A stretch of DNA of 64,000 nt from Prostheceraeus crozeri (Eukaryota > Platyhelminthes > Polycladida > Euryleptidae). This document shows, piece by piece, positions 8,782 to 62,041 of the stretch. The position numbers and the translations under genes were made by a program. Position 1 is the first letter of the stretch, and the number at the start of each line of letters is the position of its first letter. The stretch spans positions 198,501-262,500 of the forward strand of contig CAJQUW010010372.1 of the NCBI GenBank assembly GCA_907163375.1, given 5' to 3'. The notes beneath the pieces are model-generated. The model worked only from the letters and a program-made list of their open reading frames with translations. It did not search any database and was not told the origin of the DNA.

Positions 8782-9933
8782 TCAATACTTAGTCACTCCG
8801 CCACGTGCCTGAATTACGGCTTTGCATCGTCTCGGCATGCTTTCCACGAGCTTGTGCGCAAGTTCTTTTTGATCCATTTCATGGTACCATACCCGAACAA
8901 GGGAGGCAATCAACTCTTGCTTCGTTCTTGGGGTTTTCTTCATTGCTAAATCTCCCAATTGCTTCCACAGCTCTTCAATTGGATTAAGGTCTGGTGAATT
9001 TCCGGGCCAGTCCATTACGCGGATGTTCTTCAGGGCGAGAAATGCTTTAACCTGAAAACAAAATGAGATTAAGACAATGAAATTGGCAATTCTAAAAGTA
9101 TCAATACCTTGTAGACTCACCTTTAGTGCTGTGTGTGCTGGGGCAGAGTCTTGTTGAAAGATAATGTCTTCTCGTGAATATCCATGAAGCGTCGTCAGAG
9201 TGGATATTGAAGGCAGCAAGCTTGTATTCAAGATCTGCATGTAGCTTTCCTGATTGACCGATCCTTCACAAATTTGCAGTCTTCCCATTCCGTACCAGCT
9301 AAAGCAGCCCCATACCATGGTGCTTCCGAGGAATTTTACTGTTGATTGCACACAGTCCGGATGATAAGCTTCTCCGCTTCTTCGCCTTACAAACTGTCGT
9401 CCATCTGAACGAAAGAGGTTAAATTTTGACTCGTCCGACCATACCACTCGCTTCCACTGATCTTCGGTCCAAGATGAGTATTTCCTTGCCCAAGTAAGGC
9501 GCGCAAGCATCATCCTCTTGGTCAACAGAGGTTTTCGCTTTGGACGTCTAGCAACGTATCCCATTTGGCACAGGGCACGCCGAACAGTCTGAGGACTCGC
9601 GTGAACTCCTACTTTGGTCAGATTTGATGACATTTCCGTAGACGTTACTCGGCGATCTTTCAGGACCATGCTCTTCAATCTTCGTTTAGCTCGAACTGTC
9701 AGCTTTGTTGGCCTTCCCGACTTATGAAGTGGTTCACAGGGTTGTCCTTTCTTCATCTTGCAAACTACACGATCCACAGTCCTTCTACTTTTCTTGACAC
9801 GTTTTGATATTTCTCTGTTGCTTAGTCCTTCCCTCGAAAGTGCTTTAATAACAGCAATATCAGGCGGAGTTGTGTATCGTCCTGGCATTGCAAACAGCAT
9901 CAGAGGAAATGTGTCATTGTACTCGCATGACAT
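8782..9933 (-). CDS. Tc1-type transposase with one intron
   Basis: The N-terminal half holds paired helix-turn-helix DNA-binding domains (LSREGLSNREISKRVKKS, then the region ending ARRPKRKP). The catalytic domain follows with the acidic triad: first Asp in VVWSDESKFNL, second in FQQDSAPAH, and Glu in SPDLNPIEELW. The frame is open, but residues between HTALK and VKAFLALKN do not fit the family. At that point the DNA reads GTGAGT...TTTTCAG (9120 down to 9052), a canonical 69-nt intron in phase 0. Splicing gives 360 residues, close to the usual Tc1 length. The transposase cuts and pastes the element at TA sites. Confidence 0.85.
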   Translation of the reverse strand: MSCEYNDTFPLMLFAMPGRYTTPPDIAVIKALSREGLSNREISKRVKKSRRTVDRVVCKMKKGQPCEPLHKSGRPTKLTVRAKRRLKSMVLKDRRVTSTEMSSNLTKVGVHASPQTVRRALCQMGYVARRPKRKPLLTKRMMLARLTWARKYSSWTEDQWKRVVWSDESKFNLFRSDGRQFVRRRSGEAYHPDCVQSTVKFLGSTMVWGCFSWYGMGRLQICEGSVNQESYMQILNTSLLPSISTLTTLHGYSREDIIFQQDSAPAHTALKVSLQGIDTFRIANFIVLISFCFQVKAFLALKNIRVMDWPGNSPDLNPIEELWKQLGDLAMKKTPRTKQELIASLVRVWYHEMDQKELAHKLVESMPRRCKAVIQARGGVTKY

Positions 9934-19541: not shown

Positions 19542-20456
19542 ATGGAAATGACTCAAATTTGTCAAGTTTGCAATATGTGTTTTTTAAATCAAACACTATT
19601 ATATTCTCGTATGAAAAACACACCATGTGGTATGCATATAAATCAATTTCAACCTAATAATAGTATTCAACCTAATAATAGTATTCAACCTAATAATAGT
19701 ATTCAGTATAATAATATTCAATCAGAGCAACCATTACAAAGATTAAAGCATTTATTTATTTCAGATAAAGAACAAAATCTTTATACTGCTAGGCAAAATA
19801 ATAATTATTTAGCACAAAATACACCTAGGCAAAAGAATAATCATTATTTAGCACAAAATAATAATAATTATTTACCACAAAATAATAATAATTATTTACC
19901 TCAAAATAATCCTTTTGTTCAAAATAATAATGTAGCACAAAATAATTATGTTGATAAAAATCAATTTGTTGAATGTAATAACAAAAAAATATGTTCCGGA
20001 TGTAATAAAAATATAACGTCTAAAAATTTTGCACGTCATTTAAAATTATGCGAACAACCAGAAGAGGTTAAAAAAGATAAAAAAGATAAATTAAAAGATC
20101 AGTTATGTCGTAATTGTAATAAATATTTTACAAGTCAAGGAATTACTAATCATTATAATTCTTGTATAAGTTCTACAAGACAATGTACAAGTTGTCAAAT
20201 TACTAAATCTAAGACAGAGTTTTATGATAGTAAATATCAGTGTAAGGATTGTTTAAAAGAAAAAGTTAAATGTAGAGGTTGTCAAAAAATTATATTAAAG
20301 AAAAATTTTCAGCGACATGTAACACTATGTCCAAAACTTAATAAAGATCTTAATCAACATAATAATAATTTATATCAAAATAATTTATATCAAAATAATT
20401 TATATCAAAATAATAATAATTTATATCAAAATAATAATAATAATAATTTATATTAG
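19542..20456 (+). CDS. Asn-rich zinc-finger protein (element I only)
   Basis: The 304-residue protein begins with a CQVC...C-type knuckle, passes through a long Asn/Gln low-complexity region with repeats QPNNSI (three in a row) and NNNYL, then has three to four Cys/His knuckles at about 150-265 (CSGCNKN...H...C, CRNCNKYF...H...C, CTSCQ...CKDC, CRGCQK...H...C), and ends in LYQNN repeats. It is probably a nucleic-acid-binding protein. It sits at the head of the plus-strand replication block of element I and has no counterpart in element II. Precise function unknown. Confidence 0.6.
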   Translation: MEMTQICQVCNMCFLNQTLLYSRMKNTPCGMHINQFQPNNSIQPNNSIQPNNSIQYNNIQSEQPLQRLKHLFISDKEQNLYTARQNNNYLAQNTPRQKNNHYLAQNNNNYLPQNNNNYLPQNNPFVQNNNVAQNNYVDKNQFVECNNKKICSGCNKNITSKNFARHLKLCEQPEEVKKDKKDKLKDQLCRNCNKYFTSQGITNHYNSCISSTRQCTSCQITKSKTEFYDSKYQCKDCLKEKVKCRGCQKIILKKNFQRHVTLCPKLNKDLNQHNNNLYQNNLYQNNLYQNNNNLYQNNNNNNLY

Positions 20457-43765: not shown

Positions 43766-44356
43766 ATGGCACGTTCAAGCATCGCCTTTGCCGATTTGAA
43801 AAGAAAAATTTCAGACACTATTGTGAACGAAGATCAACGGAAGAAGTGTATTGAGATGCTAACAGAATTTCAGGAGAAATATCTTAAACCAAGGGAGGAA
43901 GAAGACATCCACGCATCAAAAACATTCAGAGAATTTTTAGTGATAAATCGATTTGAAGACACATTGCAAGATAACGCCATCAATATCAGTTCAAACTATA
44001 ATTTTGAAGAAGAAATTCAAAGAGACATCTTACCATCAGAGCTAACTAATTATTTAGCACATTTAAGAAGAGAAGAAGACATTTCGGTGAACAATACTGT
44101 GAAGTTATCGTTGTTAAAAGGAAGAGCTTTGACTGTAATCCGGGGAAGTGGCCATGTTTGTGAACAATTAGGTTATTCCAGAGGCTATAACATCTTTTTA
44201 AGAAAATTTTATAAACTATATTTACGTTTTCCGTTTATTAAGAACTCGACGGAATCTATATCATTTTTCAAAAGGAACTTCGCTATTATTGACTCGTATC
44301 TTCGCCATGGGAGACAGCGCCCAACCCTTGATGAAATACTAAACTCAATCAATTGA
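43766..44356 (+). CDS. 196-residue protein of unknown function (element II only)
   Basis: Begins MARSSIAFADLKRKISDTIV. It is mostly helical and charged, with IVNEDQRKKCIEMLTEFQEKYL early and SLLKGRALTVIRGSGHVCEQLGYSRG in the C-terminal half. Base composition is closer to host DNA than the capsid genes, and it lies in the unique spacer next to the right TIR, where Polintons often carry acquired cargo. No family recognised. An immunity or host-interaction role is possible but is only inference from position. Confidence 0.5.
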   Translation: MARSSIAFADLKRKISDTIVNEDQRKKCIEMLTEFQEKYLKPREEEDIHASKTFREFLVINRFEDTLQDNAINISSNYNFEEEIQRDILPSELTNYLAHLRREEDISVNNTVKLSLLKGRALTVIRGSGHVCEQLGYSRGYNIFLRKFYKLYLRFPFIKNSTESISFFKRNFAIIDSYLRHGRQRPTLDEILNSIN

Positions 44357-44383
44357 AACGGTAAGCTACTCGCAATGGATAAT

Positions 44384-44990
44384 AGTACTATGAGTATTAC
44401 CTTATTTCTATTTACGAGAAACAAATGTATCATGCCATAATACATTTTAGTAACATATATATTATTCGTTGTAAACCATACTACTTGTCCTCATTGGTTT
44501 TATAGTTCTATGAGCCTTACCTTATTTTACTCATACAGAAACAATTGTATCATGGCATAATACATTTTCTAGTCAACATATTTTATTCGTTGTAAACCAT
44601 GCTACTTGTCCTCATTGGTTTTATAGTTCTATGTGCCTTAGCTTATTTTACTCATACAGAAACAATTGTATCATGGCATAATACATTTTCTAGTCAACAT
44701 ATTTTATTCGTTGTAAACCATGCTACTTGTCCTCATTGGTTTTATAGTTCTATGAGCCTTACCTTATTTTACTCATACAGAAACAATTGTATCATGGCAT
44801 AATACATTTTCTAGTCAACATATTTTATTCGTTGTAAACCATGCTACTTGTCCTCATTGGTTTTATAGTTCTATGAGCCTTACCTTATTCTACTCATACA
44901 GAAACAATTGTATCATGGCATAATACATTTTCTAGTCAACATATTTTATTCGTTGTAAACCATGCTACTTGTACATAGTACTTGTCTGTG
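44384..44990. repeat. 121-bp tandem array, about five units
   Basis: Units start at about 44384 (diverged), 44505, 44626, 44747 and 44868, a strict period of 121 bp. Each includes CTATGAGCCTTACCTTATT and GTAAACCATGCTACTTGTCC. Later units are nearly identical, so the array expanded recently. Short frames inside it are by-products of the repetition. Confidence 0.95.
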
Positions 44991-45006
44991 ATGTGAATAA
45001 AATATT

Positions 45007-45330
45007 TCAAAGATGGAAATGTGTTTTCATTTTGTATCGAGTTAAAGCAGTAGCAACTACTGGAATTGTAAGAACGCCAGATGAAATGTCAATTGTTAAA
45101 GCATTAGACCTTCTCTTTCTTAATTTTTTATAATGCTCTAATCTTAATAATAATTGAGATTCCTTATCTTTCATATAACGTACTCTATCTTTGTGTTTTT
45201 CTTTGTTCATTTTTTCAATGTTCATTTTTTCAATGTCCATTAAAGTAGAACTACGTTCATATGATAACGAAGGATATATTCTTGAGGTTCCTTCCATTTC
45301 TGAAGTTCCTTCCACTTTTGTTTCTTCCAT
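45007..45330 (-). pseudogene. truncated membrane-protein gene in element II right TIR
   Basis: The inverted-repeat copy of the gene at 28285. It starts identically (MEETKVEGTSEMEG), lacks 17 codons around the first hydrophobic segment, then runs through SSGVLTIPVVATAL and leaves homology at the TIR edge. The part after the deletion (nucleotides reading SGVLTIP) is closer to the element IV copy at 63260 than to its own left-TIR partner. Confidence 0.8.
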
Positions 45331-49961: not shown

Positions 49962-51116
49962 ATGGCTAATGACAGGAATCGCAAATTCCATATTAAAATG
50001 TGCACATGTGGGCGAATCAATCGCAGTGCGGACGCCAAGGCTCATGTCAAGAAGGCGGGCACCGACCACATGATTATCCTGAATAGGGTTGTATGTGTGA
50101 AGTGTAGAGTGCTGAAGGGTGTTGAGGATGAGGCGCGTTTCTATAGAGTGCATGCTGACTGTAGTGGAGGTTTGGTGAATGACGTGCGATTCACGCAGTT
50201 GATTGTTAAACAGAGGGAGCGAATGTTGGCGATCGAGCGAGAGGGTAACGTTGAGAATGTTGTTGAGAATGATGAGTTGGCGAGAGCAGTTGCGTCGTTG
50301 GAGGCTGAGATTGGGCGAAAGAGAGTGCTTGAGAGTGATGATGAGGATGATGTGGATTTAGATAGGGAGCGTGTGAGGAAGTTGAGCTCTTCGTCGTCGG
50401 AGGTGTCAAACATTGTCATCACCGACCCCCCGAAGAGCTCATCTTCCCCAAAAGTGAAGAGTGGTGGGATTCGTATGCAGTCGGCGAGGTGGTTGAAGGA
50501 TGAAGAAAAGAAGCATGTTTCGCAGCAGATGGCGCATGATTTGTTGGTGAATAAGTATGAGAGTTTGAAGAAGGTGAAGGATGAAGTTGTGAAGGAGTTG
50601 GATGAGTTGAAAAAGAAGGAAATGAAGTCGAAGGAGGTAGCGGATGAGAATATTAGAATGAGGCGTAGTGTGACTGATTTGAAGAGCAAGACGCGAGAGT
50701 TGGAAGAGAAGAATGATGAGTGTGAGAAGAGGGCGAGTGCTGCGGAGAGAAGAATGAGAGATGCAGAAGCGAAGTTTGAGGAGATGATGAAGGAGATGAG
50801 TGTGTTGAGAGCGAGGAATGTTGAGTTGGAGAGGACTGTGGCTCGGCGGGGTGATGAGAGGCAGGCGCATGAGAAGTTGGAGCGCATGAGGGATGAGTGG
50901 AATCGTGTGAATGAGGATCGTTTGTTTGAGTTTCACATCCCTATTCGGGATAATCATTTGGACGGCGAAGTACTCGTAAACCAGAATTTAGATGACTCCA
51001 TCATATGTTACAACGGCCATCCAACGAAAAAATGTCTCCATGCCAGCCTAAGAATGCGCGGCCATCTGTATAAATTCTCGATTCGGATGCGCGCGAGACT
51101 GCCAAAGGATGGCTAA
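49962..51116 (+). CDS. zinc-knuckle and coiled-coil protein of element III
   Basis: 384 residues. The N-terminus has a CxC...CxxC cluster (KMCTCGRIN, VVCVKCRVL), a short acidic/Ser region (DDEDDVDLD, SSSSSEV), a long Lys/Glu coiled coil at about 180-320, and a C-terminal segment of different character (SIICYNGHPTKKCLHASLRM). No family recognised. The coding strand is very purine-rich, which produces spurious opposite-strand frames. A 60-bp GT-AG intron follows the stop, and the first 141-bp repeat with its stem-loop lies in the 3' region. Confidence 0.5.
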   Translation: MANDRNRKFHIKMCTCGRINRSADAKAHVKKAGTDHMIILNRVVCVKCRVLKGVEDEARFYRVHADCSGGLVNDVRFTQLIVKQRERMLAIEREGNVENVVENDELARAVASLEAEIGRKRVLESDDEDDVDLDRERVRKLSSSSSEVSNIVITDPPKSSSSPKVKSGGIRMQSARWLKDEEKKHVSQQMAHDLLVNKYESLKKVKDEVVKELDELKKKEMKSKEVADENIRMRRSVTDLKSKTRELEEKNDECEKRASAAERRMRDAEAKFEEMMKEMSVLRARNVELERTVARRGDERQAHEKLERMRDEWNRVNEDRLFEFHIPIRDNHLDGEVLVNQNLDDSIICYNGHPTKKCLHASLRMRGHLYKFSIRMRARLPKDG

Positions 51117-51120
51117 CTTG

Positions 51121-51180
51121 GTAAGTGAAAAGTAAATAAGATAGTATATCCTATTCTAATACATATCATTTTCATTGCAG
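51121..51180 (+). other. 60-bp candidate intron downstream of the stop codon
   Basis: Begins GTAAGTGAAA, ends TTTTCATTGCAG, and has a branch-point-like TTCTAAT 25-30 bp before the acceptor. It starts 4 bp after the TAA of the preceding gene, so it would be a 3'UTR intron. Confidence 0.55.
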
Positions 51181-51215
51181 ATCTTTGCCCGCCTTCACCA
51201 CCCCATCACGACACT

Positions 51216-51356
51216 CCCGAGAACGAACCATCGGCTCTCTTAAGGGCCACCTAGGGGCAAGACATGATAGAACCTCTACGCGGTTTGCCCTGGGCAGTCT
51301 TCGGACTGGCGAATACTATCATTAAGTTGAATCTGCTATCAGTCAACTTGAACGTT
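51216..51356 (+). repeat. 141-bp structured repeat, copy 1
   Basis: Begins CCCGAGAACGAACC and ends CAACTTGAACGTT. It has the same length as copies 2 and 3, with only a few substitutions. Contains a histone-type stem-loop, the perfect hairpin CAGTC-TTCG-GACTG (51295-51308) and a longer stem AAGTTGA...TCAACTT. Confidence 0.95.
51233..51248 (+). terminator. histone-type 3' stem-loop, copy 1
   Basis: GGCTCT-CTTA-AGGGCC followed by ACC. The 6-bp stem (one G-U pair), 4-nt loop of the YUUN type and trailing ACC fit the metazoan histone mRNA 3'-end consensus. A purine-rich stretch (GGGGCAAGACATGATAGA) follows where a U7-binding downstream element would lie. Structure is seen; function is inferred. 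Confidence 0.6.
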
Positions 51357-51373
51357 GCGTCGCGTTAGAGGGG

Positions 51374-51380
51374 TATATAA
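51374..51380 (+). promoter_or_regulatory. TATA box upstream of the 88-residue gene
   Basis: TATATAA in GGGGTATATAAACCACTG, 33 bp before the ATG at 51413, leaving a very short 5' leader. Confidence 0.65.
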
Positions 51381-51412
51381 ACCACTGCCTCCCATTTCAT
51401 TTCATTTCAATC

Positions 51413-51679
51413 ATGCAGACGCCGAACAGTCAAGTCAGCTCTCCTCGCGGACTGCACTTAAGGCCGCGAAATTTATTTGAGGAGTTTGTCAGGATAGAGG
51501 AGCAAGACAGAGTTTTTAATAATCTTGCTCGGATTGGCAATCCGATGACAGCAACTGCTGTCAATCCAACGGAATGGCGCTACATTCCACTTTTTAGCCA
51601 TGTACCAGTTAGTGTGGAAGTCAACAGTGCTACCAAAGAGAGAGTCAAAGACTCTCTCAGCAGAATTGGTAGGGTGTAA
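51413..51679 (+). CDS. 88-residue protein of element III
   Basis: Begins MQTPNSQVSSPRGLHLRPRN and ends DSLSRIGRV; basic, no recognisable domain. It is an autonomous small gene: TATA box 33 bp upstream, single exon, and a histone-type stem-loop beginning 29 nt after the stop codon. That arrangement copies metazoan replication-dependent histone genes, though the protein is not a histone. It could be an abundant early or S-phase-linked product. Confidence 0.55.
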   Translation: MQTPNSQVSSPRGLHLRPRNLFEEFVRIEEQDRVFNNLARIGNPMTATAVNPTEWRYIPLFSHVPVSVEVNSATKERVKDSLSRIGRV

Positions 51680-51691
51680 GATGACGTTACT

Positions 51692-51832
51692 CCCGAGAAC
51701 GAACCACCGGCTCTCTTAAGGGCCACCATGGGGCAAGATTTGATAGAACCTCCTCGCGGTTTGCCCTGGGCAGTCTTCGGACTGGCGAATACAATCATTA
51801 AGTTGAATCTGCTATCAGTCAACTTGAACGTT
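51692..51832 (+). repeat. 141-bp structured repeat, copy 2
   Basis: Same length and ends as copies 1 and 3, beginning 12 bp after the stop codon of the 88-residue gene. The UUCG hairpin and the AAGTTGA/TCAACTT stem are conserved. Confidence 0.95.
51709..51724 (+). terminator. histone-type 3' stem-loop, copy 2
   Basis: GGCTCTCTTAAGGGCC followed by ACC and a purine-rich tract, 29 nt after the stop codon at 51679. Distance and form are as in histone mRNAs. Confidence 0.65.
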
Positions 51833-51897
51833 ATGCAGTCGATTACTATCCCTGAAGCATTCTGATTCGCTGTTGAGCAATTCATTGTTGAAAACCC

Positions 51898-51904
51898 TAT
51901 ATAA
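51898..51904 (+). promoter_or_regulatory. TATA box upstream of the 84-residue gene
   Basis: TATATAA in ACCCTATATAAGCCAG, 48 bp before the ATG at 51946. Confidence 0.65.
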
Positions 51905-51945
51905 GCCAGAAGATTGTAGCGCTTCTCATTCAATTTCAAGTCACG

Positions 51946-52200
51946 ATGGAAGCGACATCTGCCAACAGCATTCCCGTCTTCATCGATGAAGACAACGCCA
52001 TTCCCGAGTTCGTCATCCTCGACGAGTGGGATGAAGAGGATGAGAAGAAGGGGAAGATCAAGAGGATCGTTTGGACGGATGAGGTGTGGACTCCGAATAC
52101 AACTCGCATCCGAAAGGTGCCAGATGCACCAGCACGACCTCGGCGGTATAGGGTCTATGACAACCTAACCGTCATACCCATTGACTATTCCAGCCAATAG
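51946..52200 (+). CDS. 84-residue acidic protein of element III
   Basis: Begins MEATSANSIPVFIDEDNAIP. An acidic N-terminal half (LDEWDEEDEKKGK) and a basic, Pro/Arg-rich second half (DAPARPRRYRVYDN). No family recognised. Like its neighbour it has its own TATA box and a histone-type stem-loop 34 nt after the stop. The two genes do not resemble each other, so the cassette ends are shared but the coding parts are not. Confidence 0.55.
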   Translation: MEATSANSIPVFIDEDNAIPEFVILDEWDEEDEKKGKIKRIVWTDEVWTPNTTRIRKVPDAPARPRRYRVYDNLTVIPIDYSSQ

Positions 52201-52217
52201 TCAACTTAAATTCACAC

Positions 52218-52358
52218 CCCGAGAACGAACCATCGGCTCTCTTAAGGGCCACCATGGGGCAAGACATGATAGAACCTCCACGCGGTTTGCCCTGGGCAGT
52301 CTTCGGACTGGCGAATACTATCATTAAGTTGAATCTGCTATCAGTCAACTTGAACGTT
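52218..52358 (+). repeat. 141-bp structured repeat, copy 3
   Basis: Same length and ends as copies 1 and 2, beginning 17 bp after the stop of the 84-residue gene. Differences from copy 1 are a handful of substitutions. Confidence 0.95.
52235..52250 (+). terminator. histone-type 3' stem-loop, copy 3
   Basis: GGCTCTCTTAAGGGCC, then ACC and GGGGCAAGACATGATAGA. Same geometry as copies 1 and 2. Confidence 0.65.
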
Positions 52359-52962
52359 GCAAATGAAGTTCGGTGTAATACTTCCTTTCGACGGGCGTTC
52401 CTGTAAAGGGCAGCGGTGAAACCCGTGGCTATGTATACCGCAAGGGATATTCGGCAATGGTCAATCTTGTTTAACCTCTCTGCGTCATGTTTGCAAGTGA
52501 TTGCCTCTGTCTCAACGTAGTATGCATTCGCGCCAGGGCGACATTTAGCCAACTGTCGAAGGTTGCCTAAAACTTTCCATTGCATACGTTATGAGAACCA
52601 TGAGTTCTACCTGTCTCTATCAATGAGACGAATTGATGAATGGAATGAAATGGGAGGACACTCACGCGCCACACGCAACATAACACACTTCTCTCTTCCG
52701 TAGTCTAACAAGCTCTTTACAAAGCTCTTTACACATGGATCGCAGTCGATTGCTATCCCTGTATCAGAAGTGTAAGCTATCTTAATTTATTTGACACCAT
52801 TTCATCTACCATCATCGTCCATATGAAATGTTTTAAGATTTACAAGTTAGATTAAGCGTGCTACTATTTCCAAATGAAAATGTATACATGGTTAAATCAT
52901 CCAATGAAGCCCCATTCAAGTAAGTCAGTATGAAAGCAAAGATAATACGAAATAAAAATTTA
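52359..52962. other. degenerate cassette remnant or spacer
   Basis: No convincing coding frame. A stretch near 52738-52770 (CGCAGTCGATTGCTATCCCTG) matches the spacer after copy 2 near 51835, so part of the cassette flank is duplicated here. It may be a decayed fourth unit. Confidence 0.4.
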
Positions 52963-53645: not shown

Positions 53646-56600
53646 ATGGTAAGTTGAAAATTTCTTCACTCATCTCTCTCAAACGTGTGGCTAATAGCAT
53701 CTTCCTCAATTTCAGGCATCAACTTCATCACCAACGCCCTCCCTTCTCGAGGAAAGTTTAGAGTTGTTGAGTCAAAGTAGGTTGTAACAATACACTGAGA
53801 CTTGAACAGAGATGATAGAATGATTTCTCTTTCAGGTGATGTGAGTTCCAGCTCAGGACTCTCGCGACAAGGCAACGAGTGGGAATGTGCCGACTGCGGA
53901 CATATGTTTACAAGGAAGCACAGTCTCCTTCGACACATCAAACAACGTGTGTGTCAACGCAAAGCGGCGTCAATCTCCGGAGGTGAAGTTGATTCTGACG
54001 ATGACATTTCCTTTCCTTGCGATTTGTGCCCTCTTTCTTTTGATAGTCACTTTCAGCGATCTTCGCACAGACTTCAACACACTTATGCAAATGATCACTA
54101 CACCAACGATACCTCTATCATCTCCCTCATTAATGTTTCACACAATAATTTAGTACGCGACTACTGCATGGAGTCCAATACTCAAATAGTAGATTTTCCT
54201 GAGTGGCTCCTTCAAAATTCTAACATTATCGAAGCGCTCTTCAACAATTTAGACAATTTTAGAATGAAGGCGCTCATCTACCTCAAACTAAAATATATTA
54301 AGATAGATTTTCAAACGGGTCAAGTGACGGAGAGAATACAGTTTCATGTTCCTTCCTCTTCCGCAACTGAAGTTGTAGACTGCGAGTCTTGGCTAAATTT
54401 TCACGTTCAATGTTTAAAATCAAATGTAGATAAATTCAATCAACGCGACAACAGCGCTCTCATTTTTGATGGTGTGGACTCAGCCATATTCAAAATTTCC
54501 CTATTAGAAAGTCATGCAGCTCGAGGCACATTTAAACTACCAAAAACGTTGTATAATAAGAAAGCTGTCATCAATGTCGATTGTAAATCACAGTGTTTCA
54601 AATATGCAGTCCTATCCATCCTTCACTATAATGATATCAACGCGCATCGAGATCGCACCTATAGCTATAGACAGTGGGAGGATGAACTAGACTTTGAAGG
54701 TTGTGATAGTGACAACATGAAAATCAAAGATGTAGAAACGTTCGAAAAACATAATAAGATTAAAATTGTCGTTCACGTGTGGGAGAAGGGGTTGAAGGGT
54801 GCCCGCTATAATTCACGTTCAACTTGTTATGAACGTGTAGTCAACCTCTTATTAGTAAAACAAGATGATAGCGAGGAATGGCACTACTGTGGTATTCCCA
54901 AAATCTCTCGCTTGTACACTCACTTGGGGCACTCTAAAAGAGGTGAACATTTTGTATGCGACCGCTGCATCCGCTCCTTTTGGAGTAAAGATAAATTTGA
55001 AACTCACTATGAATGGTGCAAGCGACGTAAATTACAAATGGAACGCATGCCCAAAGATAAAATATTTTCACATAGGGATAATGGTGACGAATTAAGTCCC
55101 CTGCGTGTCATTTACGCAGACATAGAATGCTACATTGATGATATCATCCACAAACCAGCAGCCATATCCTGCTATGAAGTATGGCATGACCACTTTAGGA
55201 ATAGACAAAACAAAATGCATACTTGGCAAGGTGAAGATTGTAATTCAAAATTTCTAGAATTTCTCGATAAAGCTGCTAAATTTCAACAATCATATGATTC
55301 ACAATTGCAGCGTAGGTCACTACATATGTCAGATGAAGACAAACAGAAATTTGAAAGTTGCACATCGCGCTCTAAATGTCATAAAACGTTTGATGACGAT
55401 AAAATTAAGAAAGTGCGTGATCATGATCACATCACTGGTAAATTTAGAAACGCACTCTGCTCCAAATGTAACTTTTCACTTAGGTTGAGACGTCGTGTAC
55501 TACCCGTCATTTTTCATAACTTTAAGGGCTATGACAGTCATATGCTCATAAAAGGAGGGTTGAGCCAGATGAAATCGTGGCAGTTTAATGTAATAGCACA
55601 AACGAGAGAAAAATTCATGGCAATGACAGCAAAAGTAGCAGTAGATAAAACTAAAGAAAATAAGACAGTCTTCTTCGAAATAAAATTTTTAGATTCATTT
55701 CAATTCATGTCAGCGTCACTAGCTTCTCTCGTTCGAAATCTCAAGTTTCTTTCCCATAGACAAACTTTGAAGAAACACTATCCAAACTTAACGGATGACA
55801 TGATCACTCGCAAAGGAGTCTTTCCCTATGCGTATTTTAGCTCAATGTCTAAACTAAATGAAACAACCCTTCCTTCCATTGACAAATTCAAAAACGATTT
55901 GACGGGTGAAGATTGTCCAGTAGAGGACTATGAACATGCTCAAGAGGCATGGTTGAAATTTGATTGTAAAACGTTTGGCGATTATATGATCGCTTACTTA
56001 GAATTAGATGTCATTTTGCTGGTTGATGTCTTTCAGGAATTTCGACGAGTGGCATTAGAAGAAGACAAATTAGATCCTGTACACTTTGTCAGTCTACCAG
56101 CCATGTCCTTTAAATCAGCCTTTAAAATGACTGGTGAGACCATTCATCTCTTACAAGAACCGGAGATGTATAATATATTTGAGCGCGGAATACGCGGTGG
56201 TCTCACATTTGTAAATAAACATCATATAAAATCTGAAACAGTAGGTGATGATCATATCCACCTTAAGTACTATGACCAAAATAATTTATATGGCAGTTCA
56301 CTGTCTAAACCACTACCTCATTCCGAGTTTAGTTGGTTAAATCAAGATGAGCTTGAGTATTACTCCAACCCTTCAAACATACTGAAGATTCCAGATGAAG
56401 GTGATTGGGGATATTATTTTGAAGTGGATTTGATTTATCCAAATAGTATTAAAAATAAAACTGCTGATTTCCCACTCGCACCTGAATCTGGTGAAGTGAC
56501 TGAAGATATGTTTTCACCATTCATGTCACAATTTCATAATAACTTAACGGAGTGTGGACAGCCAAGGTACAAACCATGCCGCAAACTTTTACTCATCCAA

Positions 56601-57623
56601 TATGATAAGAAAAATTATCTCGTACACTTCTGCATACTAAAATTCTATTTAGAAATGGGCATGCTTCTAAAGTCAGTTCACCGCATTATCAAATTTAGAC
56701 AGAAAGCCTTCCTCAAACCCTACATAGATAGTAACAGTCAAAAACGTGCACTCGCCCAAAATAATTTTGAAAAGGATTTTTATAAATATAAGAATAACAG
56801 TCTTTTCGGAAAGACCATGGAGGATGTTAGAAAACGTATGAACTACAAACTAGTCGTTGATGAACAAAAATATCACAAATTGACCTCATCACCTCTTTTC
56901 ATTGATAGAGACATCATCGATGAGGATCTTGTAGGTGTTAAAATGATAAAATCAGAAGTTGAGTTGTGCAAACCCATCTATATTGGGCAAGCCGTTTTAG
57001 ATTATTCCAAGCTTGAAATGTATCAACTCTTCTACAAAATATTAAAACCATGACCTCTCGTAAAAGAGGTTCGCTTGCTGGGTGGTGATACAGATAGTTT
57101 CTTTGTAGGAATTACCACTCAAAAAGATTTAAATTTTAATGAAGTAGGTAAGTCATTAGAAAAATATTTCGACACATCTAACTACAATCCCACTCATCCA
57201 CTCTATTCCATACAGAATAAAGCCAAACTTGGTTGTTTTAAGGATGAAACAGCAGGAAAGGAAATAGATGAAATGATTCTCCTCCGTCCTAAAATGTATT
57301 CCATGAAATTAAAAGAATGTCCAGATAGTATTAAGCGTGCTAAAGGTATATCAAAATCCATTGTTCACAAAATGAAACATCGGTCCTATAAGAAGGCCTA
57401 TAAAAATAAAAATATAACGTTTGTCAATATGACAATCTTAAAATCACAAGTTCATACTGTGAAAACGTACACGTTCAAGAAACGAGCGCTTTCAGCATGG
57501 GAGGATAAGAGGTGTTGGATAGGACATAACACATCTCTTCCACATGGACATCCTGACACAAACATACCTCCACCCAAAAGAATAAAACTCACGCTACCAC
57601 ATTCAGGAGATGTATTGACATAA
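53646..57623 (+). pseudogene. type B DNA polymerase of element III, with two 5' introns and one nonsense codon
   Basis: Proposed exons are 53646-53648 (ATG only), 53716-53776 and 53836-57623. Introns begin GTAAGT and GTAGGT and end CAATTTCAG and CTCTTTCAG, and phases join correctly. Domains: a C2H2 finger (CADCGHMF...H...H), a second zinc region, an N-terminal module (SQCFKYAVLSILH), a third finger, ExoI (VIYADIECYI), an endonuclease-VII-like module (KVRDHDHITGKFRNALC), ExoII (HNFKGYDSHML), ExoIII (YLELDVILLVD), motif A (YYDQNNLYGSS), motif B (NNSLFGKTMED) and motif C (GGDTDSFF). A TGA at 57051, in frame, separates motif B from motif C. Otherwise intact. Confidence 0.75.
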
Positions 57624-57801: not shown

Positions 57802-59331
57802 TCACTTTGTTTTCCGAAACACTAAAGTTACGAGGGATTTAGTATCTTTCACATGGATGCACTCTTGTAAACCATTGGTAATTTTGATAGCAATAGAGGG
57901 TATAGTTTGTTTGACGACGGGATGATAGAAAATAGATTCAAACATCTTCTCGACTATTCCATATGAAGCGTCTTTATCATGAATGAAATCACGTAAAATG
58001 TATTCTTTTTTTTCACCAACAGAAATAGGAAGAATCAAATCACTTTGAATGTAAAGGTGCTGTTCATGTTTATCAAGTGTCATTGGTGTTTCTATACCAA
58101 TCATATGCGCAGCAGTAAACACAGTTTGTAGCATTGAAAAACCAAAGAGCTTTTTCAAATTTTTACTCAATTGACATTGAATGTCATCACCCAGTTTCAG
58201 AACAACGCGTTGATTTTCAATTGAAAACGAAATGTGGTGTGTCTTTACATCATATTTACTTTTCATCACATGCTTCAACTTCTGTTGTATATAAGGATTT
58301 ACTACAAGAATGAAGCTTTCAACTGTATGATATAGACGCGGCATTAGATTGATAGCAACTTTAGATTCTTCATAAGACTGGTAAATTTTCTTGATGCGAT
58401 CACCATAGATGTCCACCCACCATTCATCATTAACTGAATCAGCTTTAGTGTGATATTCATGAGAACCATACACCACACCGCTTCCAATAATAGGTGTATA
58501 ATGTCTTACAAAATGACGCAAGGTTGGAGAGAAATAAACTGTAAGTTTGTCATTATATTTCTAAATAACCAACTTATTTTTGTCCGCCATAATTTTCTCT
58601 CCATACTTCTTACCCACAGTCTCATTTCATCGTTTTACTAACTCAATAAGTGATAAAGGTTGAACACCACGCTTTTTCAAAATGATGCGTTCTTCACATT
58701 CTACAACATCTTCATCAAATATTTTAAATCTATAATGAAATTTGTTGATTCGATTTGAATAAACTTTTTTAACATTTGCAGTAGCAATTGACGTTAGATG
58801 CAGTCCATGACCAAAATCGGGATGTGGATAGAATTAATTATCCAACCTCAGTGTAAGACCTCTAGTAAAAGAATGAAAGCGAAGGAACTGTCTCCCACTC
58901 CAATGATAGATAGTAAACTCATAAGCTTTCTGATTTTTATTCTTCATGATGGAAGTATTACCACTATTGAACGCCTTAATAATTTTCTCATTCCCAAATG
59001 GTTCATAATAATCTGATTTTATCTGAATCCATTCATAGTTCCACTTTCCATCTGATGTTAAATTGTATGGGAACTGGAATGTATTATTCATCGTTATTCC
59101 ATCATGGGTGCGAGGAGTCAATATCATTTCTTCCAAATCATTCACATTCTGAATATTGCTATCATAGCAAATACTAGAAACGCCAACCTCCCATTCACCT
59201 TCTAAATGCAGTGGGCGATTTAATTCTACTCGATAGTCTGATGGTTTATTTTTGGGAAATTTATTCATAGAAGCATTACTGGGTAAGTAGATTAGAAACG
59301 AGTCCTTATTTTCACTTTCCATATTATTCAC
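57802..59331 (-). pseudogene. minor-capsid-like protein A, three nonsense codons (element III)
   Basis: One open frame of about 510 codons interrupted only by TAA (58834-58836), TGA (58627-58629) and TAG (58561-58563). The N-terminus LIYLPSNASMNKFPKNK and HLEGEWEVGVSSI mark a family that accompanies F54H12.2-like capsid genes in animals and resembles penton-type proteins. The C-terminal part has HLYIQSDLILPISVGEKKE and ends in SLVTLVFRKTK. It is paralogous to protein B (59363-60760). Function in vertices or capsid stabilisation is inferred. Confidence 0.65.
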
Positions 59332-61174: not shown

Positions 61175-62041
61175 ATGAGTTGGAAATTAGATTCCCTACA
61201 ACGTATTGAAACGGATCATGATCGAAACGTCTATTTCAAAGATTCAACTGGAAATGTGAGAAGAGAGTTTGCTTTATCTTATCGTCATTTTCAATCTCTA
61301 CATCATATCATGAAGGATTTGAAATACTTCTATATGAAAAGACATTCACGTATTGGAAATCGCATCTGGCTGCGCGTCAACAATCGGCGAATTCAACTCT
61401 ATCATTCCCAACTTCATACTAACTTCACATTTCATCAAGGTAGTCGGGAAAGTATAAAAGGAAGGTACATCGCTCAATTTACTCATTCTTTCATCATGAA
61501 GCGTCATCGCTACACCATCGTCAACATTCTCCGTCGCTTCAGACTCTACACCAAAATCGATCTCACAACATTACACCAACACCTTCCAAACAGCAAGTAT
61601 TACCCGGGCCGACCTCAAATGTTAGTGGTGAAGATGAACAATTCACGGAATCTTCAACTCTTCCCAAATGGGACTGTACAGATTCTCGGCGCCCTTTCTC
61701 ATTCATCGGCGCAGTCAATGCGCTTAGAGCTGCAAAGACTACTACGTCGGATATGGATGAGGGAGAGGTGTGTGATGTCGAATCTGACTGTGGACAATAT
61801 GGTGATCTCTACTCAATTGAGTGAAAGTGTATCATTTTTGAAGATTCGTACCAGCAGTTACAATTTGTGTTATGAACCCGAACTTTTTCCTGCAGCTCTC
61901 ATTAGTTGTTGGTTACCTGTGCATGTGGCAATCTTTCATAATAGTAAAGTGATCATTACTGGATTAAAATCTCATGTACAAGCAAATGTGATCCTAGACT
62001 ATCTCATCGAGTATGTACGTACCCAGCGGATTGTAAAATAA
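61175..62041 (+). CDS. TATA-binding-protein-like factor with PC4-like N-terminus (element III)
   Basis: 288 residues. Residues 1-110 resemble the PC4-like neighbour. Residues 113-285 align with both repeats of the TBP saddle: repeat 1 KIDLTTLHQHLPNSKYYPGR and LFPNGTVQILGALS; repeat 2 VDNMVISTQLSESV, YEPELFPAALIS and AIFHNSKVIITGLKS. Of the four DNA-intercalating phenylalanines of TBP, three are present (Phe163, Phe238, Phe254); the first is replaced by Pro near 147. The frame is open. It should bind TATA-like DNA and could redirect transcription to the element's own TATA promoters. Inference: a virus-specific initiation factor. Confidence 0.75.
   Translation: MSWKLDSLQRIETDHDRNVYFKDSTGNVRREFALSYRHFQSLHHIMKDLKYFYMKRHSRIGNRIWLRVNNRRIQLYHSQLHTNFTFHQGSRESIKGRYIAQFTHSFIMKRHRYTIVNILRRFRLYTKIDLTTLHQHLPNSKYYPGRPQMLVVKMNNSRNLQLFPNGTVQILGALSHSSAQSMRLELQRLLRRIWMRERCVMSNLTVDNMVISTQLSESVSFLKIRTSSYNLCYEPELFPAALISCWLPVHVAIFHNSKVIITGLKSHVQANVILDYLIEYVRTQRIVK

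Follow-up and report, generated by a model that had tools for sequence, protein, structure and literature searches.

How does a gene end its message when its stop codon is followed by a hairpin of the histone type and the next polyadenylation signal lies far downstream? The question is raised by three genes of the flatworm Prostheceraeus crozeri, each of them followed by a copy of the same 141-nt repeat. They lie in a stretch of 64,000 nucleotides, called the window here, which is part of a 2.05-Gb assembly. A preliminary description took the repeats to carry histone-type stem-loops behind small viral genes, and it tentatively assigned the processing of their messages to the host pathway of SLBP and U7, or to a variant of the element's own. 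I propose that the repeat is an mRNA 3'-end module of another kind, in which an HDV-like ribozyme makes the cut and leaves a histone-type end without poly(A), bound most likely by SLBP. Taken as a whole I consider this account moderately probable. The repeats, the genes next to them and the signals between them are arranged as follows.

49962..51116, + strand: open reading frame of 384 aa, upstream of copy 1
51121..51180, + strand: possible 60-nt intron, GTAAGT...TTGCAG, between the stop of the 384-aa frame and copy 1, read from sequence only
51216..51356, + strand: repeat unit copy 1, 141 nt (leader, histone-type hairpin, predicted HDV-like ribozyme, downstream hairpin)
51374..51381, + strand: TATA box, 3' of ribozyme copy 1 and before the 88-aa gene
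51413..51679, + strand: small gene of 88 aa, upstream of copy 2, with two metagenomic relatives, 92% and 67-69% identical
51692..51832, + strand: repeat unit copy 2, 141 nt
51898..51905, + strand: TATA box, 3' of ribozyme copy 2 and before the 84-aa gene
51946..52200, + strand: small gene of 84 aa, upstream of copy 3, with three metagenomic relatives, 89-94% identical
52218..52358, + strand: repeat unit copy 3, 141 nt
53820..57053, + strand: EndoVII-type open reading frame, adjoining the repeats, for which the protein database has 518 relatives

That there are three such repeats with histone-type stem-loops, beginning at 51216, 51692 and 52218, is confirmed, and so is their equal length with few substitutions. 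The 141-nt units align without gaps and differ from one another at eight positions (copies 1 and 2), three (1 and 3) or five (2 and 3), and GGCTCT-CTTA-AGGGCC-ACC occurs in every one of them. A repeat finder puts the length at 152 nt and gives the other two copies 93% and 91% identity with the first. When the rest of the window is compared with the unit by blastn-short, nothing better comes up than three matches of 21-22 nt, all within a local repeat at 19648-19704. The placement of the repeats also proved to be as first described. Unit 2 starts 12 nt past the stop of the 88-aa frame and unit 3 starts 17 nt past the stop of the 84-aa frame, their hairpins lying 29 and 34 nt from those stops, and both small genes have a TATA box, TATATAA at 51374 and at 51898. 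The hairpin of copy 1 is farther away: from the stop at 51116 the distance is 116 nt, which shrinks to 56 nt should 51121-51180 be an intron that is spliced out. A dispersed repeat without function is an unlikely explanation, because two of the three copies begin so closely behind the stops of conserved genes.

Both small frames look real, to judge by their conservation. A Pfam scan of the 88-aa and 84-aa products gave no match, and having no Pfam family they are therefore no histones; a Pfam scan of the 384-aa frame gave nothing above the cut-off. After ribozyme 1 and again after ribozyme 2, a TATATAA box precedes the ATG that comes next, so these two ribozymes are most likely part of the 3' ends of the genes upstream of them.

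The preliminary description suggested that the messages are not polyadenylated. On the + strand, the longest gap between AATAAA or ATTAAA signals in the window runs from 49992 to 52951 (2959 nt) and covers all three stops and all three repeats. From stop to first AATAAA the distance is 1834, 1271 and 750 nt for the three repeat-tailed frames, the signal being the one at 52951, against a median of 171 nt for 30 other frames. The gap is explained in part by base composition, because the higher G+C of the repeat region (0.48, against 0.32 in the window) makes such signals rarer there anyway. What counts against the argument is that five of the 30 other frames are likewise without AATAAA within 751 nt, those at 57802-58344 and 58834-59322 on the minus strand among them, and these five carry no such repeat. 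Messages without poly(A) are likely, given where the longest gap falls, with the five signal-poor frames on the other side of the scale.

If poly(A) is not what ends these messages, then the hairpin invites comparison with that of histone mRNA.

51233..51248, + strand: histone-type stem-loop copy 1 (6 bp, 4-nt loop), found as a pattern match; Rfam Histone3 18.9 bits
51709..51724, + strand: histone-type stem-loop copy 2; Rfam Histone3 18.2 bits
52235..52250, + strand: histone-type stem-loop copy 3; Rfam Histone3 18.1 bits

The claim of a histone-type layout finds support. Counted on the alignment from CCA through ACC, 20 of the 24 positions of copy 1 agree with the consensus of Histone3; the departures are loop position 1, one stem position and the two nucleotides preceding the stem. 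The covariance model itself, which had been named as a check, gives a divided answer: each of the three copies can be aligned to Rfam Histone3 (RF00032), yet the 18.1-18.9 bits reached are well below the family's gathering score of 34. A pattern for the hairpin that allows at most one mismatch finds the three repeats and nothing else in the 64 kb, and it finds nothing in 100 shuffles, which speaks against a chance occurrence. The hairpin is present in the minimum-energy folds of units 1 and 3 and absent in that of unit 2. When short 5' pieces are folded, it is found in copies 2 and 3 and not in copy 1.

Behind the hairpin there is indeed a purine-rich tract, and here the preliminary description and the present reading part ways. 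The tract reads as P1, J1/2 and P2 of a ribozyme, the presumed U7 tract supplying the 5' sides of both helices, P1 and P2, in an HDV-like fold. For that reason it is probably no U7 downstream element, and the proposed use of the host U7 pathway is not supported.

51254..51322, + strand: predicted HDV-like ribozyme copy 1, predicted cut 51253/51254, putative catalytic C 51310; RF02682 28.3 bits (model 1-74/74), RF00094 22.3 bits
51730..51798, + strand: predicted HDV-like ribozyme copy 2, predicted cut 51729/51730, putative catalytic C 51786; RF02682 26.8 bits, RF00094 28.3 bits; P2 5/7
52256..52324, + strand: predicted HDV-like ribozyme copy 3, predicted cut 52255/52256, putative catalytic C 52312; RF02682 26.8 bits, RF00094 25.9 bits

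How close is the resemblance to HDV? Every pair of P1 (7/7), P3 (3/3) and P4 (5/5) is possible in each copy, in nested order, and P2, the pseudoknot helix that the Rfam HDV models leave unscored, can form seven, five and seven of its seven pairs in copies 1, 2 and 3. CUGGG and GGCgAAU agree with the RF00094 consensus in all three copies except for one letter of J4/2. The L3 sequence, CCUCCUCGC, matches the consensus fully in copy 2 and is one letter off in copy 3 and two letters off in copy 1. P1 opens with a G-U pair, and so does P1 of HDV. The C at 51310, 51786 and 52312 presumably has the catalytic role of its counterpart in HDV. The R2 ribozyme, too, is credited with a putative catalytic C in a passage of PMC3774820, and the J1/2 of the repeats, 3 nt long, has a length at which cleavage was measured in another HDV-like ribozyme, according to an excerpt of PMC4908430.

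The alignments of RF02682 and RF00094 run the full length of the models in each of the three copies, with scores under gathering (26.8-28.3 against 44 for the former, 22.3-28.3 against 50 for the latter). A gathering score is the curators' threshold and no structural feature; a scan of the window at that threshold returns no match to any family in Rfam. When the whole window is scanned with 4227 families at E up to 5, matches to the HDV families are confined to the three repeats, RF02682 with window-wide E values of 0.32-0.73 against all 4227 families and RF00094 within E 5 for copy 2 only. The HDV-like model was proposed before the Rfam result was seen, and for a single family named beforehand the E value of 0.32 becomes about 8e-5 on division by 4227.

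The 31-nt ribozyme core behaves as the hairpin pattern did, found in the three repeats only in 64 kb and never in shuffles. A descriptor of the HDV-like fold also matches just the three repeats in the window, but it is loose when taken alone, because 60 shuffled windows yielded 10 matches to it. As for the differences between copies, two of the eight variable columns are paired columns, both in P2, so that the avoidance of helices is weak (P = 0.07), and no covariation is available because the known copies are three and closely alike. The resemblance of the repeats to HDV-like ribozymes is well supported by their sequence, and it is highly probable that an HDV-like ribozyme is what they contain, whether by descent or by design of the fold.

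Would the RNA adopt such a fold? For copy 1, the part assigned to the ribozyme has a more stable fold than its shuffles (z -2.88). This fold contains P1 and P4, and both helices appear in the minimum-energy fold of this part in all three copies. P3 is absent from the plain minimum-energy folds of all three units, with a pair probability of at most 0.18. When copy 1 is folded as a complete unit, its spacer and the beginning of P1 favour pairing with the J1/4 side. Copy 2 has a competing fold that replaces both P1 and the histone hairpin and accounts for about half of the ensemble (the hairpin's pairs stand at 0.46-0.55). The minimum-energy fold of copy 3 is the proposed fold except for P3. Plain minimum-energy folding cannot represent the two pseudoknots, and even pseudoknot software applied to a proven ribozyme missed P1.1 and shifted P3, as an excerpt of PMC4908430 relates. 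Because of this limit and this precedent, the adverse folds leave the odds as they were.

The repeat does not end with the ribozyme. A further hairpin follows in each copy.

51322..51351, + strand: downstream hairpin copy 1 (9 bp + 3 bp), fold z -2.67, no variable column
51798..51827, + strand: downstream hairpin copy 2
52324..52353, + strand: downstream hairpin copy 3

Its 12 pairs are all possible in all three copies, with zero substitutions, and it is part of the minimum-energy fold of all three units, copy 1 folding better than its shuffles. The last base of P2 is the first base of this hairpin, and its loop repeats CTATCA, which is the 3' strand of P2. One may speculate that the hairpin competes for P2 or, in copy 2, serves as a backup for it.

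What joins the two halves of the repeat is geometry. The predicted cut, immediately before GGGGCAAG, falls exactly 5 nt past the stem of the histone-type hairpin in all three copies. In histone pre-mRNAs the cut comes at about this distance, some 5 nt past the stem, and a ribozyme with this cut site would therefore yield a histone-type end directly. I propose that each repeat serves as an mRNA 3'-end module and works in this way. RNA polymerase would transcribe the gene together with its repeat, and the HDV-like ribozyme would then fold and cut at its own 5' boundary, behind the hairpin. The product would be a short mRNA whose last letters are ACCUA or ACCAU behind the histone-type stem-loop. 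It would carry a 2',3'-cyclic phosphate and lack a poly(A) tail, and the stem-loop would take the place of poly(A), most likely through the binding of host SLBP, as in histone mRNA. The 3' fragment, consisting of ribozyme and second hairpin, would be discarded, though the free 5'-OH that it exposes may aid termination ahead of the next TATA box. Direct support for the scheme comes from the sequence, the possible pairing, the Rfam resemblance, the geometry, the conservation of the small genes and the lack of nearby poly(A) signals; from these I infer the cleavage, the extent of the transcript, the chemistry of its end, the binding of SLBP and the fate of the 3' fragment. It is likely that a ribozyme makes the 3' end of these messages, if the version without SLBP is counted in; with the predicted part for SLBP included, the chances come out a little better than even.

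Other readings of the repeat share some of this evidence. The ribozyme might make the 3' end while the hairpin is a generic device, one that protects the end or offers a site to a viral protein, and SLBP has no part in it. Histone3 scores far under gathering would fit such a hairpin, and so would the departures of copy 1 from the consensus in the loop, in the stem and just before it. The match to the consensus over the rest of the positions, CCA through ACC, is more than a generic hairpin calls for, and neither would it need the same 5 nt between stem and cut in three copies out of three. I consider it unlikely, though worth keeping in mind. Far less can be said for a cut by host SLBP and the U7 snRNP at a purine-rich downstream element. 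A histone-like hairpin plus a purine-rich stretch fits that reading, but the stretch is accounted for by P1, J1/2 and P2, and the remainder of the repeat is conserved as an HDV-like fold that a U7 site would find superfluous. It is very improbable.

The ribozyme might also serve something other than the end of the gene before it. Many of the eukaryotic HDV-like ribozymes described stand at the 5' ends of retrotransposons, according to passages of PMC3774820 and PMC8256844, and by that analogy the cut would free the 5' end of the RNA downstream, as in R2 and other non-LTR elements. With a TATA box ahead of the first ATG after ribozyme 1 and likewise after ribozyme 2, with genes lacking any Pfam match after copies 1 and 2, and with two of the three copies starting a mere 12 and 17 nt past stop codons, this is improbable at the present locus. 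Among the frames scanned there is no reverse-transcriptase gene after the cut; after copy 3, the next + strand frame of at least 120 aa, at 53820, is the EndoVII-type one. An R2-like 5' end is disfavoured both by the TATA boxes and by the lack of a reverse-transcriptase domain in those frames. As slight a chance as that of the U7 reading attaches to the idea of a ribozyme that regulates negatively or sets a timing, as has been proposed for CPEB3: its cut would do away with the message, and uncut transcripts would go on to be polyadenylated downstream. CPEB3 protein reportedly increases when the Cpeb3 ribozyme is inhibited (in an excerpt of PMC10919898), and an AATAAA for the uncut transcripts exists at 52951. 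The cut predicted here, however, keeps the complete coding region together with its histone-type hairpin, and from the three stops it is 750-1834 nt to the nearest AATAAA or ATTAAA downstream.

Returning to the proposed ribozyme-made histone-type end, one may ask how it compares with known systems. It shares with the HDV-like ribozymes (drz; RF00094, RF02682; R2, CPEB3, Chilo iridescent virus, phage theta) the P1-P2-P3-P4 layout, the letters of L3 and J4/2 and a length of about 69 nt. It differs from them in its place in a presumed 3' UTR within a virus-rich eukaryotic stretch, in a predicted cut 5 nt past a histone-type hairpin and in scores below gathering. With the 3' end of replication-dependent histone mRNA (RF00032) it has in common the 6-bp stem, the 4-nt loop, the CCA and ACC flanks, the predicted end 5 nt past the stem and, in two of three copies, nearness to the stop; but the small genes are no histones, four of 24 consensus positions differ, and a predicted ribozyme sits in the place of the U7 site. 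The ribozyme at the 5' end of R2, described in a passage of PMC3774820, is a case of the same fold in a eukaryotic mobile element. There it frees R2 RNA from an rRNA co-transcript, whereas the repeats follow coding regions and, in copies 1 and 2, precede TATA boxes. The theta ribozymes, by an excerpt of PMC10879173, are HDV-like too and occur in viruses, with a proposed aid to tRNA maturation; they are minimal, in phages and at tRNAs, while the repeats stand at protein-coding genes and have P4 and an extra hairpin. Engineered cassettes also define mRNA 3' ends with the HDV ribozyme and, separately, with histone stem-loops (an excerpt of PMC10908868), but they are artificial, and in that excerpt the ribozyme is placed behind a poly(A) track. 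In the open-licence literature I found no description of an HDV-like ribozyme combined with a histone stem-loop, which is weak evidence of absence, and excerpts of one paper found for Polintons and ribozymes show no such case.

Searches beyond the window turned up no second example. The exact ribozyme core has no locus in IMG/VR, no relatives of the 84-aa, 88-aa and EndoVII proteins were found there, and a search of phage DNA gave no match. A search of the 2.05-Gb assembly with the 141-nt unit, which skips very common words, missed even the copies in the window and so gives no measure of copy number. A generic HDV pattern found two phage loci in the wider search. A pattern of hairpin plus GG...CGNGG found 43 loci, three of which pass a loose test for P1 and P3; in these three the J4/2 core was not seen by eye in 30 nt. 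Genome contigs yielded one EndoVII-type locus, of 3914 bases, and an Rfam scan of it at E up to 1 gave no match. Two loci deserve mention in their own right. In an IMG/VR contig (L001, 3900-4260, minus strand) there is an HDV-like ribozyme with P1 GGGGTCG/CGACCCT by eye, about 16 nt past a TAA triplet; a palindrome spans its predicted cut, and CPEB3_ribozyme scores 19.7 bits there against a gathering score of 35. In L002 (6213-6369, minus strand) an HDV-like ribozyme, scored by RF00094 at 32.0 bits against a gathering score of 50, comes immediately after a tRNA, in the layout of the theta ribozymes.

What kind of element might carry such genes? The window has genes of the Polinton type at 14-43 kb: a DJR capsid, an rve integrase with a PLA2-like domain, an A32-like ATPase and PolB. 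At 12643-49138 there are two Polinton-like segments in near-mirror arrangement, with paired capsid and integrase genes and with inverted arms that reach 1399 nt in length at 97% identity. Within this region lies a tandem array with a 121-nt step (44336-45061), two registers of which are 98% identical to the reference copy and the outer two 63% and 71%; an open reading frame for a Tc1/mariner-type transposase lies at 8782-9933 on the minus strand. DNA_pol_B_2 was found in one (P0018) of four scanned relatives of the EndoVII-type protein, and precomputed domains show more among the best 120 of the 518. Four EndoVII-type relatives align on to about 57615, beyond the stop of the frame, and for this reason the copy in the window looks broken; it is perhaps an old insertion. 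That the three repeat-tailed genes are viral is suggested by this neighbourhood. A few kb from the EndoVII-type gene, at 61175-62041 on the + strand, an open reading frame has a TATA-binding-protein domain (PF00352, 6e-20), and the virus-like element there may bring a TBP of its own.

The idea can be put in a bolder form, to which I would give slightly less than an even chance. A eukaryotic DNA virus or Polinton-like element would have swapped the 3'-end machinery of its host for an RNA enzyme, which, by cutting 5 nt after a copied histone stem-loop, would send capped, poly(A)-free mRNAs into the histone pathway (export and translation by SLBP, coupling to S phase) with no need of U7 or CPSF73. 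If this is true, there would be natural eukaryotic mRNA 3' ends made without a cleavage factor or a poly(A) polymerase, and the products would be molecular mimics of histone mRNA. HDV-like ribozymes would gain a clear role at the 3' ends of protein-coding messages. The repeats would amount to a compact natural cassette for expression without poly(A), and they would hint at how a virus could tie its own genes to S phase.
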